A stretch of DNA of 20,945 nt, from positions 1 to 20,945 of the IMG/VR virus record IMGVR_UViG_3300049595_004368. The stretch is one strand, 5' to 3'. The stretch is from a virus. The translations under genes and the position numbers were made by a program. The notes under the pieces are model-generated. The model ran no database searches, was not told the origin of the DNA, and saw only the letters and a list, made by a program, of their open reading frames with translations. This document shows, piece by piece, positions 3,388-10,722 of the stretch (position 1 is its first letter; each line of letters begins with the position of its first letter).

Positions 3388-3551
3388 TCAAAGCCACCAT
3401 CGTCACCATCGTCAGCCTTCTCGGCATCGTCATCTCCTCGGAGATGGCCGGCGCGGCGGGCGGCTTCCTGTTCATCGTGGCGCTGTTCTTCTACTCGAAG
3501 CTCGACGGCATCCACATGGAGCTCAAGAAGCAGAACGAGCCGAGGCAATGA
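3384..3551 (+). CDS. Small membrane protein, 55 aa; holin/pinholin candidate
   Basis: A short gene coupled on both sides: its ATG overlaps the previous stop (ATGA at 3384-3387) and its TGA overlaps the next ATG (3548-3551). AAGGAG sits at 3370-3375 upstream. The protein begins MIKATIVTIVSLLGIVIS, turns through SEMAGAAGG, and has a second hydrophobic stretch FLFIVALFFY, ending in a charged tail (KLDGIHMELKKQNEPRQ). Two short hydrophobic segments with a tight turn are typical of small class II holins or pinholins. Its location close to a Sec-exported endolysin supports that, because signal-sequence endolysins commonly pair with small-hole holins. No sequence family was recognised, so the role is inferred from topology and context only. 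Confidence 0.6.
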   Translation: MIKATIVTIVSLLGIVISSEMAGAAGGFLFIVALFFYSKLDGIHMELKKQNEPRQ

Positions 3552-4081
3552 CTGTGACCTGTTTCAACTGCGATGGGCCTCCGCCAGTGCATTGGCATCA
3601 CGTTGTTCCAAGATCCGCGGGAGGGAAAAAGACCGTGCCGTTATGCGAATCATGTCACGGGCTAGTTCATGGCAAGGACATGCGGATCGCGTCGCTTACA
3701 AAGTCTTCCCTTGCGCACAAGAAGAGCCAAGGGCTCCGCGTGGGCACTATTCCGCTCGGCAAGCGCCTCGCCGCTGACGGCAAGCACCTTGAGGACAATC
3801 CCGTCGAGCTCGAGGCCGTCGAGAAGATTCGCGCCAATGCTCGCCGGCACGCCGAAATCCTCGAGGAGCTTGCGGCCTTGCGTGCTCGTCTTAACTATTA
3901 CACTGGAGAAGCGCGACGAGAAGCCCAGAAGCGCGAGCGCGTCCTCATCAAGGAGAAGAAGGCGACGAGCTACCTCGGCACGGCCCGCGAGCTAAACGCC
4001 GGCATCGGCGACCGCTACCCGACGCGCAAGGCCAAGGCGTGGAGCGTTAGCTTCGTGCGCCAGTTCGTGGAGCGGCGGTGA
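3548..4081 (+). CDS. HNH endonuclease fused to a stand-alone serine-recombinase 'Recombinase'-like domain, 177 aa
   Basis: Residues 1-42 are an HNH module with a zinc knuckle: C5xxC8, the WHHVVPRSAGG core with H17/H18, and C33xxC36H with H41. Residues 55-177 resemble the DNA-binding 'Recombinase' domain that follows the catalytic domain in large serine recombinases: KKSQGLR, PLGKRLAADGKHLEDNP (compare PYGYRL..dG..L.pdP), ELEAVEKIR, then after an inserted charged helix (about 98-140) ARELNAG and RYPTRKAKAWSVSFVRQFV. The serine catalytic domain is absent. Known HNH enzymes nick or cut DNA; the second domain would supply site recognition. The 5' DNA (to about 3670) is less GC-rich than the rest, as if the HNH part had been grafted on. 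The next gene repeats the second domain. A homing-type nuclease is the simplest reading. Confidence 0.7.
   Translation: MTVTCFNCDGPPPVHWHHVVPRSAGGKKTVPLCESCHGLVHGKDMRIASLTKSSLAHKKSQGLRVGTIPLGKRLAADGKHLEDNPVELEAVEKIRANARRHAEILEELAALRARLNYYTGEARREAQKRERVLIKEKKATSYLGTARELNAGIGDRYPTRKAKAWSVSFVRQFVERR
3717..3822 (+). repeat. 106-bp direct repeat, copy A (recombinase-domain coding)
   Basis: This segment aligns without gaps to 4151-4256 at an offset of 434 bases. By hand count about 92 of 106 bases are identical, including a 23-base identical start. It encodes the KKSQGLR...GKRLAADGKHLEDNP...ELEAVE part of two adjacent genes, pointing to a local gene or domain duplication. Confidence 0.85.
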
Positions 4082-4530
4082 TGGTTCACGAGAGTCTTCC
4101 CGCCGGCTACGTTGAATTCATCTCTGCTAGGACGAAGGCCGCGCTCGCCTACAAGAAGAGCCAAGGGCTCCGCACGGGCCATGTGCCCTACGGCAAGCGC
4201 CTCGCCGCCGACGGCAAGCACCTCGAGGACAATCCTGCCGAACTCGAGGCCGTCGAATTGATGCGGGCCGCGAAGGAGGCTCGGGCTCGCCTTGGGGAGG
4301 AGCTCGCCGCCGTTCGCTCAAAGATCGCCGCGCTCAAGAAGCAACCCAAGCCGAGGCAAGCCGAGATGCGTCGGCTTCTGGCGCAGGAGCTCGAACTCGG
4401 GAAGGCGTATCGCGCCAACGGCTCCCGGGCGCTCGCCCGCACGCTCTCGGCGAATCCTTCGCGCTACCCGGCTCGAGGTGCGAAGGGCTGGAGCGCCCAA
4501 CTCGTCGAGCAGGTTCTTAAGAGACTATGA
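4078..4530 (+). CDS. Stand-alone serine-recombinase-like DNA-binding domain protein, 150 aa
   Basis: Paralogue of the C-terminal part of the upstream HNH fusion, without nuclease or serine-recombinase catalytic domain. Residues 20-60 carry KAALAYKKSQGLRTGHVPYGKRLAADG and DNPAELEAVE; residues 62-112 are a charged coiled-coil-like insert (SKIAALKKQPKPRQAEMRRL); residues 117-150 carry RALARTLSANPSRYPARGAKGWSAQLVEQVL, matching the helix-turn-helix end of the recombinase domain family. The start ATGATGG overlaps the previous stop (TGATG), so the ATG at 4078 gives MMVHES; the second ATG at 4081 is also possible. The predicted role is site-specific DNA binding, perhaps as partner, regulator or competitor of the HNH fusion; function is inferred. 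Confidence 0.65.
   Translation: MMVHESLPAGYVEFISARTKAALAYKKSQGLRTGHVPYGKRLAADGKHLEDNPAELEAVELMRAAKEARARLGEELAAVRSKIAALKKQPKPRQAEMRRLLAQELELGKAYRANGSRALARTLSANPSRYPARGAKGWSAQLVEQVLKRL
4151..4256 (+). repeat. 106-bp direct repeat, copy B (recombinase-domain coding)
   Basis: Gapless counterpart of 3717-3822 (offset 434). Differences cluster in about 20 bases (4174-4193) and the remainder is nearly identical, including silent positions. This favours recent duplication or gene conversion over selection at protein level alone. Confidence 0.85.
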
Positions 4531-4671: not shown

Positions 4672-5015
4672 CCGACTACGACCGATGGCTCGAGGAGCCG
4701 TACCAAAGCGACGAGGAGCCGTCGTCCGGCGACGTGCAGGTCATCCAGTTCGGCTTGGAGATCGAGGTGACCGTGGAGGACGACGAGCTGCACAGCTTCG
4801 TCATCCTCGGCATCGAGGATCGCGACGAGGCGCTCGAGTGCGCGGAGGACGCGGCCGCGAGCCTTGGCCGTACGTTCGATCCGGCGCGAGCCACGGACGC
4901 AGAGATCATGCAGCTCATCTCCGATGCTTTCCTTCCTGGTCGCATCCACATGCCGACCGTGCTTGAGCAACTCCGCGCCATGGACGACGACCAGTCGCGC
5001 GAGGCGTGGGAGTGA
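4668..5015 (+). CDS. Hypothetical acidic protein, 115 aa (GTG start)
   Basis: The GTG at 4668 is preferred: AAGGAG lies about 5 bases upstream and the stop of the membrane peptide overlaps it. The protein is strongly acidic throughout (DRWLEEPYQSDEEPSSGD; VEDDELHSF; EDRDEALECAEDAAA). A central strand-rich stretch VQVIQFGLEIEVTVEDDELH is followed by a helix. No family recognised, no signal peptide, no membrane segment. It is the last gene before the structured non-coding element at 5036-5188. Confidence 0.6.
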   Translation: MTDYDRWLEEPYQSDEEPSSGDVQVIQFGLEIEVTVEDDELHSFVILGIEDRDEALECAEDAAASLGRTFDPARATDAEIMQLISDAFLPGRIHMPTVLEQLRAMDDDQSREAWE

Positions 5016-5018
5016 GTC

Positions 5019-5029
5019 GTGCTAGGATC
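5019..5029 (+). promoter_or_regulatory. Candidate extended -10 promoter, GTGCTAGGATC copy 1
   Basis: TGCTAGGAT (5020-5028) fits an extended -10 (TGnTAnnnT), and TAGGAT is a common -10 in GC-rich bacteria. Initiation about 7 bases downstream would begin the transcript near 5035, just before the first helix of the structured element at 5040. The identical 11 bases recur at 5527-5537 before another gene. No good -35 is visible. Confidence 0.35.
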
Positions 5030-5035
5030 CCCATC

Positions 5036-5188
5036 CCGAGCGACGGCGTGTAGCCGTCGCACCCGGTGCGCGTCGCATCCGTGTGACTCGACGTGCGCCG
5101 GACCTCACAACCTCGGACACTCCAGCAGTCTTGAATGGCTGCACGGCGAGCGGGCTGTCCGAGGTCGTCATTGCTAGGCCCGCTCGCC
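5036..5188 (+). ncRNA. Structured RNA element with H-type pseudoknot, upstream of DUF1599 gene
   Basis: Helix 1: 5040-5047 pairs with 5053-5060 (8 bp, 5-base loop). Helix 2: 5063-5075 pairs with 5089-5101 (13 bp including two G-U pairs, 13-base loop). Helix 3: ACCTCGGACA at 5110-5119 pairs perfectly with TGTCCGAGGT at 5156-5165. Helix 4: GGCGAGCGGGC at 5145-5155 pairs perfectly with GCCCGCTCGCC at 5178-5188. The order 3-5', 4-5', 3-3', 4-3' interlocks, with no base between 4-5' and 3-3', as in a coaxially stacked H-type pseudoknot; a small CAGC/GCTG hairpin (5123-5126 with 5138-5141) can form inside loop 1. The two long helices could instead be mutually exclusive switch states. The element ends 9 bases before an ATG lacking a Shine-Dalgarno sequence, so a cis-regulatory leader (riboswitch-like) or a processed small RNA are both possible. 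I cannot assign a known RNA family. Confidence 0.65.
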
Positions 5189-5197
5189 ACCTTTCCC

Positions 5198-5533
5198 ATG
5201 CCGACACGTCCCGAACTCCTCGACCTGCACGACGAAGTCTGCGCGGCCGCGCACGACGTCATGGCGAAGAAAAGCCACGACTACGCGGCGAAGGACGACG
5301 CGCTGTTCAACGTCCGGCAGTGCGAGGCGTTCGGGCTGTGCAGCGCCGAGGCCGGCGTACTGGTTCGAATGACCGACAAGCTGTCCCGCCTTTCGAGGTT
5401 CGAGAAGCAAGGCGAGCTGGCTGTGGACGACGAGGCCGTGGAGGACACGGTGGTCGACCTCGTGAACTACTCGGTGCTCCTGCTCGCGCTGTTCCGCGAA
5501 CGCAAGAAGATCGACTCGCCGCCGGCGTGCTAG
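5198..5533 (+). CDS. DUF1599 / nucleotide-modification-associated domain 1 protein, 111 aa
   Basis: Matches the remembered pattern of the DUF1599 (Nmad1-type, all-alpha, MazG-like) family: KSHDYAAKDD (residues 25-34), VLVRMTDKLSRLSRF (55-69), and DDEAVEDTVVDLVNYSVLLL (77-96). The conserved Asp/Glu residues in the last two motifs are of the kind that bind metal in MazG/dUTPase-like pyrophosphatases. The family is frequent in phages and has been linked by context to modified nucleotides. ATG 5198 is chosen because it begins the family-like sequence; an in-frame ATG at 5135 would put part of the pseudoknot into coding sequence and adds only a low-complexity Arg-rich extension. No Shine-Dalgarno is seen; the pseudoknot abuts the start, so translation may be structure-controlled. 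No deoxynucleotide-hypermodification enzymes are visible nearby. Confidence 0.75.
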   Translation: MPTRPELLDLHDEVCAAAHDVMAKKSHDYAAKDDALFNVRQCEAFGLCSAEAGVLVRMTDKLSRLSRFEKQGELAVDDEAVEDTVVDLVNYSVLLLALFRERKKIDSPPAC

Positions 5534-5537
5534 GATC
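5527..5537 (+). promoter_or_regulatory. Candidate extended -10 promoter, GTGCTAGGATC copy 2
   Basis: Exact 11-base copy of 5019-5029. TAGGAT at 5531-5536 is 9 bases from the ATG at 5546, so initiation here would give a leaderless or near-leaderless mRNA. It overlaps the TAG stop of the preceding gene. GGAT could alternatively act as a weak ribosome-binding site. Confidence 0.3.
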
Positions 5538-5545
5538 GGCACGAC

Positions 5546-5794
5546 ATGAGTGCCCATTGCCCTCTCTGCGGCTCCCGCGTGTACAGCTTGAACACGCTTC
5601 GCTGGTCGAGTGCCCTGCGCCAGATGCCGGCGACCATTAAGCGCGATGCCCTGCGCGCTCAGACTGATCGCTCGCCGGCCGCCGGCAGGTGGCTGTACGC
5701 CACGAAGGACGGCATCGCCGTGTGCATCTCGCCCGATCAGGCCGCGCAGTTGCGGGACATCGAGGCCGAGTTCGGCGAAGACCTCGAGGACTGA
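5546..5794 (+). CDS. Small zinc-ribbon-like protein, 82 aa
   Basis: The protein begins MSAHCPLCGSRVY, a CxxC knuckle at C5/C8 typical of zinc ribbons; no second CxxC pair follows (one more Cys in GIAVCISPDQ), so metal binding is uncertain. The remainder contains KDGIAVCISPDQAAQLRDIE and an acidic C terminus. No family is recognised beyond the knuckle. It ends two bases before the GTG start of the HNH-like gene and is probably cotranscribed with it and with ruvC. A nucleic-acid-binding accessory role is plausible but unproven. Confidence 0.6.
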   Translation: MSAHCPLCGSRVYSLNTLRWSSALRQMPATIKRDALRAQTDRSPAAGRWLYATKDGIAVCISPDQAAQLRDIEAEFGEDLED

Positions 5795-6174: not shown

Positions 6175-6704
6175 ACGAATTCGTCGGCATCGACCCCGGC
6201 CTGCACGGTGGCCTCGTCCATCTCGACGCGAGCCTTCGCGTGCGCGCATGCCATCGCACGCCGATCATCGAGGGCGAGAAGGGCGTGAAGTCCCAGTACG
6301 ACGAGCGCGCGCTGGCCGGTCTCGTGCGCGACCTTGCCGAGGATGCGGCGGCCCGCGGTGCGCTGGTTCGGTTCTGCATCGAGGACGTGGCCGCGGCTCC
6401 CGGGCAAGGCGTGGTGTCGATGTTCCGATTCGGCATCGGCTACGGGCTGTGGCTCGGAGCCATCTCGGCTACACGCTGCCCGCTGCTCAAGATCAAGCCG
6501 CAGGCGTGGCAGCGCGTGGCGTTCTCTGGCCGGCCCAGCGCGGACAAGAAGCAGACGAGCTTCGTCGTCGCGCGCGAACGGTTCCCCGAGTTGCCGCTCA
6601 AGAGCAAGTCGGCCGACAGCGGATTGAGCGACGCGGCCCTTATCGCCGAGACGTGCGCGAAGATTTACAACCACAGACCGACGAACGAGAAGAGCAAGGC
6701 GTGA
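6171..6704 (+). CDS. ruvC-like: RuvC-like Holliday-junction resolvase (phage type), 177 aa
   Basis: RNase H-fold resolvase that would cleave four-way junctions and other branched DNA during phage recombination, repair or packaging. Residues 1-14 carry VGIDPGLHGG, the first beta strand with catalytic D8; FCIEDVAA holds E71; the C-terminal helix has DSGLSDAALIAE with D149/D154, completing an acidic triad or tetrad. QAWQRV (111-116) and the K-rich segment RPSADKKQTS are also typical. The GTG at 6171 overlaps the previous stop and puts the catalytic Asp at the expected distance from the N terminus; the longer frame from 6006 lies within the upstream gene. At about 177 residues the length matches RuvC. 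Its 3' end is duplicated at 7446-7504. Confidence 0.85.
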   Translation: MNEFVGIDPGLHGGLVHLDASLRVRACHRTPIIEGEKGVKSQYDERALAGLVRDLAEDAAARGALVRFCIEDVAAAPGQGVVSMFRFGIGYGLWLGAISATRCPLLKIKPQAWQRVAFSGRPSADKKQTSFVVARERFPELPLKSKSADSGLSDAALIAETCAKIYNHRPTNEKSKA

Positions 6705-6706
6705 CC
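6646..6706 (+). repeat. 61-bp imperfect direct repeat, copy 1 (ruvC 3' end / next start)
   Basis: Aligns without gaps to 7446-7506 at an offset of exactly 800 bases; by hand count 49 of 61 bases match, with 31 of 35 in the first part. It spans the ruvC C-terminal codons (ETCAKIYN...) and the overlapping start codon of the next gene (GTGA). Confidence 0.85.
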
Positions 6707-7072
6707 ATCAAAGTCTTCAGACAGACGTCCGAAGTCCGCGGACATATGCGGAAGCGCGGCATGGACTGCGGCGGCCATCCGCCGTTCGGATGGCGTCGCG
6801 AGGTCTACTGGGACGCCGAGAAGCAGGAACGCCGGACACGGTTCGAGCCGGTCGGGGAGGAGCTTCGCGCCATCCAGAACGTGCTGATGTTGCGCGAGGC
6901 GGGATGCTCGATCCGCGCGATCGTCGACGCCCTGAACGCCGACCCGAAGCGATACCCGCCTCGCGGGACCAAGTGGCATATCCGGTCGGTTCAGTTGCTG
7001 ATCCGCGCCGGCGAACTCAAGGGCCAACTTCACAAGCTGCTGGTCCAGACCGGCTATCTGGACGGCGAGTAG
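6701..7072 (+). CDS. Stand-alone serine-recombinase-like DNA-binding domain protein, 123 aa
   Basis: Third protein in the window with the layout of the serine-recombinase 'Recombinase' domain but no catalytic resolvase domain: GGHPPFGWRRE (24-34; compare GG.PPYGYR), FEPVGEELRAIQNVLMLREAG (48-68), CSIRAIVDALNADP (69-82) and RYPPRGTKWHIRSVQLLI (84-101). It is compact, lacking the coiled-coil insert of the two proteins at 3548-4530. The GTG at 6701 overlaps the ruvC stop; the frame is open far upstream but only as a shadow of other genes. The predicted role is DNA binding. It lies, with the following RHH gene, between the two copies of the 61-bp ruvC-end repeat, so it looks like cargo of an inserted cassette. 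Confidence 0.65.
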   Translation: MTIKVFRQTSEVRGHMRKRGMDCGGHPPFGWRREVYWDAEKQERRTRFEPVGEELRAIQNVLMLREAGCSIRAIVDALNADPKRYPPRGTKWHIRSVQLLIRAGELKGQLHKLLVQTGYLDGE

Positions 7073-8962: not shown

Positions 8963-9039
8963 GGGGCCGTAGCTCAATCGGTTAGAGCGCGCGTCTTATA
9001 CACGCATGGTTGCGGGTTCGAGTCCCGCCGGCCCTACCA
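8963..9039 (+). tRNA. tRNA-Ile (anticodon UAU)
   Basis: A complete cloverleaf of 77 bases: acceptor GGGGCCG/CGGCCCT with one G-U closing pair; D-arm GCTC/GAGC; anticodon arm around CTTATAC with anticodon TAT at 8997-8999; T-arm GCGGG/CCCGC with loop TTCGAGT; discriminator A and encoded CCA (9037-9039). The outermost anticodon-stem pair is a C-A mismatch. UAU reads AUA, a codon that bacteria normally read with lysidine-modified CAU tRNA and that should be rare in such GC-rich DNA; one AUA codon is at 8701-8703 in the tailspike gene. Phages often carry this tRNA. It lies just downstream of two hairpins and 8 bases from the end of the opposing operon. Confidence 0.93.
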
Positions 9040-9047
9040 TCCTGACG

Positions 9048-9779
9048 TCAAGGCCCGGTGACGTACTCGACAGCGAGGATCTCGAAGTCCCACTGCGCGA
9101 TGAACTTGTTCCGCAGCGTGGCCTCTCCCCACGGTGCCTCCACTTGTGCGTACGCGATCGAGTGCCAGCGCAGATCGACCACGCCATCCGGGTCGGTGAA
9201 CGGCGCGAGATAAGCGGGATGCACGAACTCTGATGTACGCGTGGTCCAGTACTCCGGCTGGATGTCACGGTCCCACGGCATCGTCAGCGTCTCGCCGCTC
9301 TTTCCGGCAAAGTCGAGGACGCCGTCGAAAGGGCCGAGGATGACTTCGCGTGGCTGCCCGACTCGCACGGTCGGAAGGCCGCAGAAGTTGAGCAGCATGC
9401 CGGACTCCGTTTTGCAGAACATCCACGCCGGGAAGTCGTAGCCCCACGGCTGGCCGTTCAGTGGGTTCACGCCGATCGCGCGAGGGTCGAACTCGAAGGA
9501 GGGGTGGATGTTCTCGAGCTCGGCGAACCACGCCAGATGCCAGCGGTGTGTGATCCTCACGCGCCGGAGGGTCGCCGGATCGCCGCGGAACGCCTCCAGC
9601 GCGATCCTGCGCTCGTCCTTGGCCTTGGATGGCACCCACGGCCAGTCGTTTCCCTTAAGGCCGTAGAACGCGGCTACGGGCGTCCCAGATCGGCTGCGGC
9701 CTTGGGCGTCTGCCCAGTCCCCTGAAGTCACGACGCCCAAGGCCAGAGCCGTCAGGCCGACGCGCGCGCCAGCCTTCAC
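9048..9779 (-). CDS. Secreted protein, paralogue of the upstream gene, 243 aa (GTG start)
   Basis: The GTG start at 9779 overlaps the stop of the upstream paralogue. The first 25 residues (KAGARVGLTALALGVVTSG) resemble a weak signal peptide with a possible cleavage near ADA-QG. The body aligns by eye with the preceding gene: RRVRITHRWHLAWFAELEN, LGPFDGVLDFAGKSGET, MPWDRDIQPEYWTT and VHPAYLAPFTDPDGVVDLRW. Such FDGxLDFxGxSG and aromatic/beta-rich patterns recall 'choice-of-anchor' type extracellular beta-sandwich domains, but I recall this only loosely. It is the last gene of the leftward operon, directly before the tRNA. A role outside the virion (envelope modification, superinfection exclusion) or as a virion decoration is possible. 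Confidence 0.65.
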   Translation of the reverse strand: MKAGARVGLTALALGVVTSGDWADAQGRSRSGTPVAAFYGLKGNDWPWVPSKAKDERRIALEAFRGDPATLRRVRITHRWHLAWFAELENIHPSFEFDPRAIGVNPLNGQPWGYDFPAWMFCKTESGMLLNFCGLPTVRVGQPREVILGPFDGVLDFAGKSGETLTMPWDRDIQPEYWTTRTSEFVHPAYLAPFTDPDGVVDLRWHSIAYAQVEAPWGEATLRNKFIAQWDFEILAVEYVTGP

Positions 9780-10468
9780 GGATTGTACTCCACCCGCCGA
9801 ACGACGATCTCCCAGTCAGAGATGACGTCGCCCACGCTCAAGGCGTCGGCCGTCGGCACGTCGAGCCCGGGCACCAAGGGGACGGAGTTGACGACTCCGA
9901 TTCTGAAGGTCACCAGACCGTCGCCGTCGAGGTCGACGAACTTCGAGAGCAGAAGAGGACTCGTCACGTCGACGACCTCGGTCGTGTAGTAGCTGGGCTG
10001 GAGGCAGACGTTCCACGGCACGATCTCCGTCCGGCCCGAAGGGCCGACGTAGTCCAGCGTTCCGTCGTACGGGCCAAGCTCGAAGGTACACATGAAGACG
10101 CTGACGCTCGGCGTCCAAGTGCTCGCGAACTGGCCGGCCTCGTTGTAGAGCCACGTCATCGACTGGAAGTGCGGCATGTAGCCGTAGCCGTTGTCGTTCG
10201 GGACTTCGGCGTTGTTCCACCAGGCGTTCGGCGTCGTGTTCTCGACGCGGAACGCATAGCCAAGGTGCCAGTCCACGGTCAGGCGCACGCGCGAAAGCGG
10301 CGCGCTGGCCGTGTAGGCCGGGAAGGAGATCTCGCCGGCATCGTCGGCGCTGGCGTTCGTGCCGATGAACGGACCGTCGAAGTACTGCTGACCACGTTGG
10401 CGACCGGCGTGGACGGAGACTCCAACGACAAGTGCGGCCGCGAGGCCGGCGAAGAAAAGACGCTTCAT
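9776..10468 (-). CDS. Secreted protein with signal peptide, 230 aa
   Basis: The start at 10468 is fixed by the leader CCAAGGAGCCACAACC and by the signal peptide MKRLFFAGLAAALVVGVSVHA (cleavage about residue 21). The mature part is beta-rich and aromatic with LSRVRLTVDWHLGYAFRVEN, LGPYDGTLDYVGPSGRTEI, VPWNVCLQPSYYTT, LLSKFVDLDGDGLVTFRIG (an Asp-rich, possibly Ca-binding stretch) and a WEIVVRRVEYNP end. It is paralogous to the next gene. A single-domain 'choice-of-anchor E'-like extracellular fold is a possible identity, uncertain. The longer upstream in-frame extension to 10546 lies within the DUF1508-like gene and is rejected. Its start overlaps that gene's stop (ATGA). Confidence 0.7.
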   Translation of the reverse strand: MKRLFFAGLAAALVVGVSVHAGRQRGQQYFDGPFIGTNASADDAGEISFPAYTASAPLSRVRLTVDWHLGYAFRVENTTPNAWWNNAEVPNDNGYGYMPHFQSMTWLYNEAGQFASTWTPSVSVFMCTFELGPYDGTLDYVGPSGRTEIVPWNVCLQPSYYTTEVVDVTSPLLLSKFVDLDGDGLVTFRIGVVNSVPLVPGLDVPTADALSVGDVISDWEIVVRRVEYNP

Positions 10469-10722
10469 GGTTGTGGCTCCTTGGATCCTGCGTGCATGCG
10501 ATCGACGAGCTTCGTGCCCGGCTTCATGTGATCGAGAACCGAGCACGCCGCGCGAAGGGCCGCGTGGTGCGACGAGTACATTTCAGAGAAGCAGAGGATG
10601 CGACTGTTGGGGCTGCGCACGCGGAAGAACCACGAGCCGCTCGGGCCCTGCTCTACCTCGAGCGTCAACGCCACGCCCTTCGCTTCTCGACTCCTCGGCG
10701 ACTTCGGCGTGGCATTGGTCAT
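10465..10722 (-). CDS. YegP/DUF1508-like protein, 85 aa
   Basis: The core GSWFFRVRSPNSRILCFSEMYSSHHAALRAACSVL (residues 28-62) matches the DUF1508 (YegP) pattern F.FrL...NG.vi..Se.Y.sk..a..gI..v: a small alpha/beta dimeric fold whose biochemical role is unknown. The ATG at 10722 has AGGTGA about 5 bases upstream. The C-terminal tail DRMHAGSKEPQP overlaps, as DNA, the ribosome-binding site and start of the secreted-protein gene. A DUF1508-like protein in the distal part of a tail operon is unusual; whether it is virion-associated cannot be told. Confidence 0.7.
   Translation of the reverse strand: MTNATPKSPRSREAKGVALTLEVEQGPSGSWFFRVRSPNSRILCFSEMYSSHHAALRAACSVLDHMKPGTKLVDRMHAGSKEPQP
10469..10488 (-). 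promoter_or_regulatory. Repeated ribosome-binding leader, copy 5
   Basis: On the minus strand, GGATCCAAGGAGCCACAACC directly precedes the ATG at 10468. It matches the CCAAGGAGCCAC of the leader at 1422-1439 although it lies inside the coding end of the DUF1508-like gene. Confidence 0.6.

Follow-up and report, generated by a model that had tools for sequence, protein, structure and literature searches.

Directly upstream of a gene of the DUF1599 family (nucleotide modification associated domain 1), positions 5040-5188 of the phage DNA considered here are occupied by a pair of hairpins and by two interlocking, perfectly paired stems of 10 and 11 bp. The question raised by this locus is whether these helices represent a functional RNA and, if so, what this RNA does for the gene that follows it.

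The window (i.e., the whole stretch of DNA analysed) comprises a complete IMG/VR virus record (20,945 bases). It is a linear piece of the genome of a tailed phage whose tail genes are lambda-like. No DNA similar to it was found in the annotated phage collection. Three closer phages (referred to as L053, L054 and L055; 53-55% identity of the DUF1599 proteins) were identified via the adjacent RuvC-like gene, and the viral-contig alignments with the RuvC, DUF1599 and next genes returned the same three. A terminase scan added about fifteen more relatives, the fragments of which do not cover the DUF1599/element locus; the comparative set accordingly comprises four uncultured phages, the window included. 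Since the genome contigs searched contained no relative of RuvC or terminase, the host was not found.

Anatomy of the element

The helices were described in a preceding sequence-only reading, together with their loops, a -10-like box and an ATG without a Shine-Dalgarno (SD) sequence 9 nt downstream; all these coordinates were reproduced and are listed in Table 1, together with those of a further hairpin, P4. S1 and S2 abut at 5155/5156 with zero nucleotides between them, and loop 1 in the window is 25 nt long.

Table 1. The element, its putative promoter box and the downstream gene (positions in the window)
Feature	Position	Strand	Basis
-10-type box TGCTAGGAT (TGC TAGGAT)	5020..5028, hexamer 5023-5028	+	sequence
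P1 hairpin, 8 bp, 5-nt loop GUGUA	5040-5047/5053-5060	+	folding
P2 long hairpin, 13 bp, two G-U pairs	5063-5075/5089-5101	+	folding
S1, first pseudoknot stem, 10 bp	5110-5119/5156-5165	+	pairs in 4/4 phages
P4 hairpin within loop 1, 6 bp, loop UUGAAU	5125-5130/5137-5142	+	
S2, second pseudoknot stem, 11 bp	5145-5155/5178-5188	+	pairs in 4/4 phages
Loop 3, CGUCAUUGCUAG, 12 nt; UCAU common to 4/4 phages	5166..5177	+	
Pyrimidine-rich spacer ACCUUUCCC, without Shine-Dalgarno; CCACCU common to 4/4 phages	5189..5197	+	
DUF1599 gene, 111 aa; ATG at 5198, 9 nt past S2	5198..5533	+	

The minimum free energy of the element region is -89, compared with -68.6 +/- 4.3 for shuffled sequences (z = -4.75), and none of the 200 shuffles reached so low a value. 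The nested minimum-energy fold of this region contains S2 and lacks S1, because the program cannot draw pseudoknots. The stem energies (-17 to -20 kcal/mol for S1 and -22 to -25 kcal/mol for S2) permit the knot; the coexistence of S1 and S2 rests on geometry, and each stem per se rests on covariation. Contacts of the P4 loop with the linker or with loop 3, inspected by eye, were not consistent.

Conservation of pairing in related phages

Each of the three relatives has a structured region directly before the DUF1599 start codon, and a search for interlocking stems gave one and the same arrangement at this position in all four phages: S1 of 10-11 bp, S2 of 11 bp, a junction of zero nucleotides, a first loop of 24-27 nt, a last loop of 8-12 nt, and a distance from S2 to the ATG of 9, 12, 9 and 9 nt. 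Outside the elements of these phages, 8 comparable matches (interlocking stems of at least 20 pairs) were found in 1.38 Mb of strand, about one in every 170 kb of phage DNA; these are mostly G-U-rich.

Since MAFFT misplaces the stems, the pairs were counted in a manual alignment anchored at their junction. All 84 cells of the two stems contain standard pairs (40/40 in S1 and 44/44 in S2), and 18 of the 21 pairs have changed on both sides between phages (9/10 in S1 and 9/11 in S2). Arms swapped between phages form on average 4.8 of 10 pairs in S1 and 5.1 of 11 in S2, as against 10 and 11 for a phage's own arms. A covariance-model search served as a check independent of the hand alignment: with a model built from L054 and L055 only and a search space of 131 kb, the best other matches were to L053 (E 2e-7) and to the window (E 0.007), both at the expected position, once per phage, and with no second copy.

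The sequence-only reading had regarded a loss of complementarity in homologues as evidence against its proposal of a pseudoknot; in the three close relatives the outcome is the opposite, i.e., full compensatory change. The RNA fold is therefore real: its paired bases changed in concert in the three related phages. The arms alternate, and their pairing and geometry are kept throughout; with this comparative support from four phages, the element is assigned to the H-type pseudoknots, and its constant place 9-12 nt before the ATG is that of a probable leader.

S1 contains three G-U pairs and no A-C pair in the four phages; S1 and P4 together contain six G-U pairs and zero A-C, and P2 adds further G-U pairs. 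Therefore, the selected molecule is the RNA of the + strand, which agrees with the initial preference for an RNA over a DNA element directly before DUF1599. Of the remaining helices, the P1 hairpin is present in L053 and L054 and is weaker, with an internal loop, in L055. Long P2 hairpins differing in sequence occur in all three relatives, and at the P4 position these phages have a hairpin with the loop UUGGUC; in P4, three of the five compared pairs show both-sided changes.

A separate observation concerns L053, where positions 4311-4365 are a truncated second copy of the L054-type P1/P2 beside an inserted C5-methyltransferase gene. This copy differs from L054 by two compensatory changes of P1 pairs and has near-identical flanks, pointing to recombination at the element.

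The search for other members of the family was largely negative. The covariance models of Rfam 15 at the gathering threshold identified only tRNAs in the window and its relatives; the highest-scoring Rfam model on the element is that of a microRNA, by chance (13 bits vs 78), and the preQ1 classes gave no match on the element region up to E 10. Considering that no Rfam family matches, we claim no known riboswitch or leader family. The HDV-like, preQ1, SAM-II and glmS layouts presumably have another order of arms and were set aside. A scan with the exact pattern of the S1 arms gave nine matches, which we attribute to chance because the two-stem scan confirmed none of them at its position; searching with a pattern of the conserved region of the P4 loop returned only the known relatives and unrelated matches. 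The 51 more distant viral DUF1599 loci have no such element upstream, the space being mostly occupied by coding DNA or overlapping genes. Thus, the association with DUF1599 noted initially holds for the window and its three close relatives and fails for the distant loci; as far as the compared sequences go, it is lineage-specific. Absent from Rfam and from these 51 loci, the element therefore represents a new family of pseudoknotted phage RNAs with a narrow distribution.

Coupling to the DUF1599 gene, and a putative promoter

The DUF1599 start codon directly follows the element in all four phages, and the gene preceding the element varies: an ORF ending at 5015 in the window, a C5-methyltransferase gene in L053 and L055, and an unrelated ORF in L054. 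The element and DUF1599 remain together despite this change of the upstream gene, and an action in cis on DUF1599 is therefore favoured.

The box bordering the element on its 5' side has counterparts in the relatives: TAGACT (L053), TAGAAT (L054) and TACAAT (L055). No -35 sequence was recognised at the box of the window. The overall number of -10-like boxes is not above that in shuffled sequences, so the evidence for a promoter consists in the conserved positions of the boxes. Judging from the hexamer in Table 1, the transcript probably starts near 5035, just before P1.

Boxes of this kind were also observed elsewhere. In all four phages, TAGACT or TAGAAT precedes the ATGs of homologous genes by 6-7 nt (window 20022, minus strand, and the equivalents L093-L100), a placement which suggests that the mRNAs of several phage genes are leaderless. 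A second TGCTAGGATC at 5528-5548 of the window overlaps the end of DUF1599, 9 nt before the ATG of the next gene; in L054 and L055, TAAGAT lies 7 nt before the ATG.

The frame through 5135-5197 is open in the window. An N-terminal extension of the protein in frame through the knot (from an ATG at 5135) was considered and rejected: its protein sequence shows no conservation, and some of the indels between the phages are not multiples of three. This is in line with the earlier assumption that the segment is untranslated. SD-like tracts occur at many other genes of these phages and at none of the four DUF1599 starts.

The DUF1599 product falls within Pfam PF07659 (26.9 bits at a cut-off of 25) and PHROG 1485 (E 5e-14); no solved structure matched it in sequence. 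The predicted fold is helical (pLDDT 88.9), and its best structural match is 2p06 with Z 7.5, which is below the safe level for helical bundles; 2gta and DCTPP1 score lower. The model weakly resembles the all-alpha NTP pyrophosphatases (AF_0060, YpjD and DCTPP1), AF_0060 being, as we presume, a member of this superfamily. The gene likely encodes a nucleotide-handling enzyme.

Several other features can be mentioned in their own right. Two adjacent paralogous short proteins (window 3548-4081 and 4078-4530) share a domain similar to the post-catalytic part of serine recombinases, and in the former the N-terminus is HNH-like; at 6704-7069 there is a third recombinase-like fragment (PHROG 95, integrase). 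In L053, DUF1599 is followed by a tRNA-Met-like gene (4896-4987) with no counterpart in the window; at that place, L054 (about 4838-4940) and L055 (about 4855-4935) have tRNA-like long-stem hairpins, for which ARAGORN makes no call. A tRNA-Ile gene with the anticodon TAT (window 8963-9039) is conserved in all four phages. Two neighbouring proteins of an unknown family on the minus strand (window 9051-10546) are mutually similar by eye and have no PHROG match.

Probable translational control and its alternatives

We consider it probable that the element is a structured 5' leader of the DUF1599 mRNA and controls the translation of this gene. The leader of about 160 nt, transcribed from near 5035, would form two hairpins and then an H-type pseudoknot, in which S1 is stacked end to end on S2 and loop 1 bears a hairpin. 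The foot of S2 would lie 9-12 nt before the SD-less AUG, so the knot would occupy the place that the 30S subunit needs. The knotted state would restrict or gate the entry of the ribosome into the DUF1599 gene, and its formation would depend on a bound factor; we lean to a protein, possibly the DUF1599 product itself. By analogy with gene 32, rpsO and the alpha operon, we favour repression that such a factor may relieve or impose.

The closest of these systems is the gene 32 mRNA of phages T4, T2 and RB69, the 5' leader of which has an H-type pseudoknot with coaxial stems serving as an autogenous translational operator; T4 gene 32 is likewise a tailed-phage mRNA with such a knot upstream of the start codon (PMC3014915). 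There, however, the knot is small, lies 67 nt upstream and is followed by an A+U-rich tract, and the acting protein is a cooperative ssDNA-binding one (PMC3014915), whereas the element described here has stems of 10-11 bp, ends 9-12 nt before the AUG, includes two extra hairpins and precedes a DUF1599 gene. In rpsO (S15) and the alpha operon (S4), translational repression makes use of a pseudoknot that lies on the initiation site or shortly before it, and one upstream of this site is also described in mycobacteria (PMC10931766). The rpsO and alpha-operon cases differ in that the genes are cellular and encode ribosomal proteins, the SD sequence is inside or near the knot, and there is no sequence relation to the element. 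The manA, wcaG and STAXI motifs are likewise candidate structured RNAs, found in phage or mobile DNA; the last of them is mainly a pseudoknot (PMC2864571), but a small one in tandem repeats. No Rfam family, motifs of that survey among them, matches the element.

It is tempting to read the same position in the opposite sense, i.e., the pseudoknot and the pyrimidine-rich spacer would load the ribosome on the SD-less start, activating rather than repressing, either via protein S1 or with the stem S2 replacing the SD helix. The SD sequence is absent in all four phages, S2 ends at the usual distance of an SD helix from the AUG, and the spacer, CCACCU-YYCC, is largely conserved; besides, bS1 binds pseudoknots (PMC10931766), and a pseudoknot of the tisB mRNA is reported to serve standby loading (PMC7708055). 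A stable 11-bp GC-rich helix at -10, however, would more simply hinder the 30S subunit, and we find recruitment rather unlikely. The more specific notion of a phage ribosome-landing RNA, where S2 stands in for the Shine-Dalgarno helix and structure drives initiation on an SD-less AUG in bacteria, is unlikely.

The own -10 box and the compact, fully folded body would also fit a separate small RNA, produced from the same promoter, with processing or an end near 5188, and acting in trans, its adjacency to DUF1599 being incidental. The constant 9-12 nt to the ATG across divergent phages, the lack of a U-run after S2 and the single copy per phage speak against it, which makes such an RNA quite unlikely.

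A metabolite riboswitch for a nucleotide or a modified-base precursor handled by the DUF1599 protein would agree with the likely place of this gene in nucleotide metabolism and with short unpaired stretches that recur in part between the phages (UUG in the P4 loop, UCAU in loop 3 and the A-rich linker before S1). Yet little sequence is conserved outside the pairing, and aptamer cores are usually near-invariant; the P4 loop of the window departs from UUGGUC, and Rfam offers no match. The preQ1 and SAM-II riboswitches are, as here, pseudoknotted leaders of metabolic genes, but have much shorter stems and strongly conserved ligand-binding loops, and their Rfam models do not match the element. The comparison with preQ1 made in the sequence-only reading stands as a loose analogy of pseudoknotted leaders and not as family membership; a riboswitch here is improbable.

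Covariation shows the use of each stem and not their coexistence, so a two-state switch, with S1 and S2 formed in alternation and no knot, could be proposed. With nested folding, the window and L055 indeed favour S2, L054 favours S1, and L053 both. A switch, however, normally needs overlapping competing arms; the arms of S1 and S2 do not overlap and abut with zero nucleotides in all four phages, and the length of the loops suffices for a coaxial knot. We regard the switch as highly improbable.

Finally, perfect GC-rich stems could extrude from DNA, but a DNA element (a cruciform or protein-binding palindromes) or chance is scarcely credible given the G-U pairs without A-C, the z value above and the interlocking geometry conserved through complete sequence turnover.

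The preferred reading, a leader controlling translation of DUF1599, makes the element a candidate for a second, unrelated phage leader. The comparative proof of its fold is unusually clean, the stems being wholly replaced with the pairing kept. The leader is attached to a gene of the nucleotide-metabolism type and to an SD-less start codon, and it permits a sharp test of whether a phage knot gates or recruits the ribosome.
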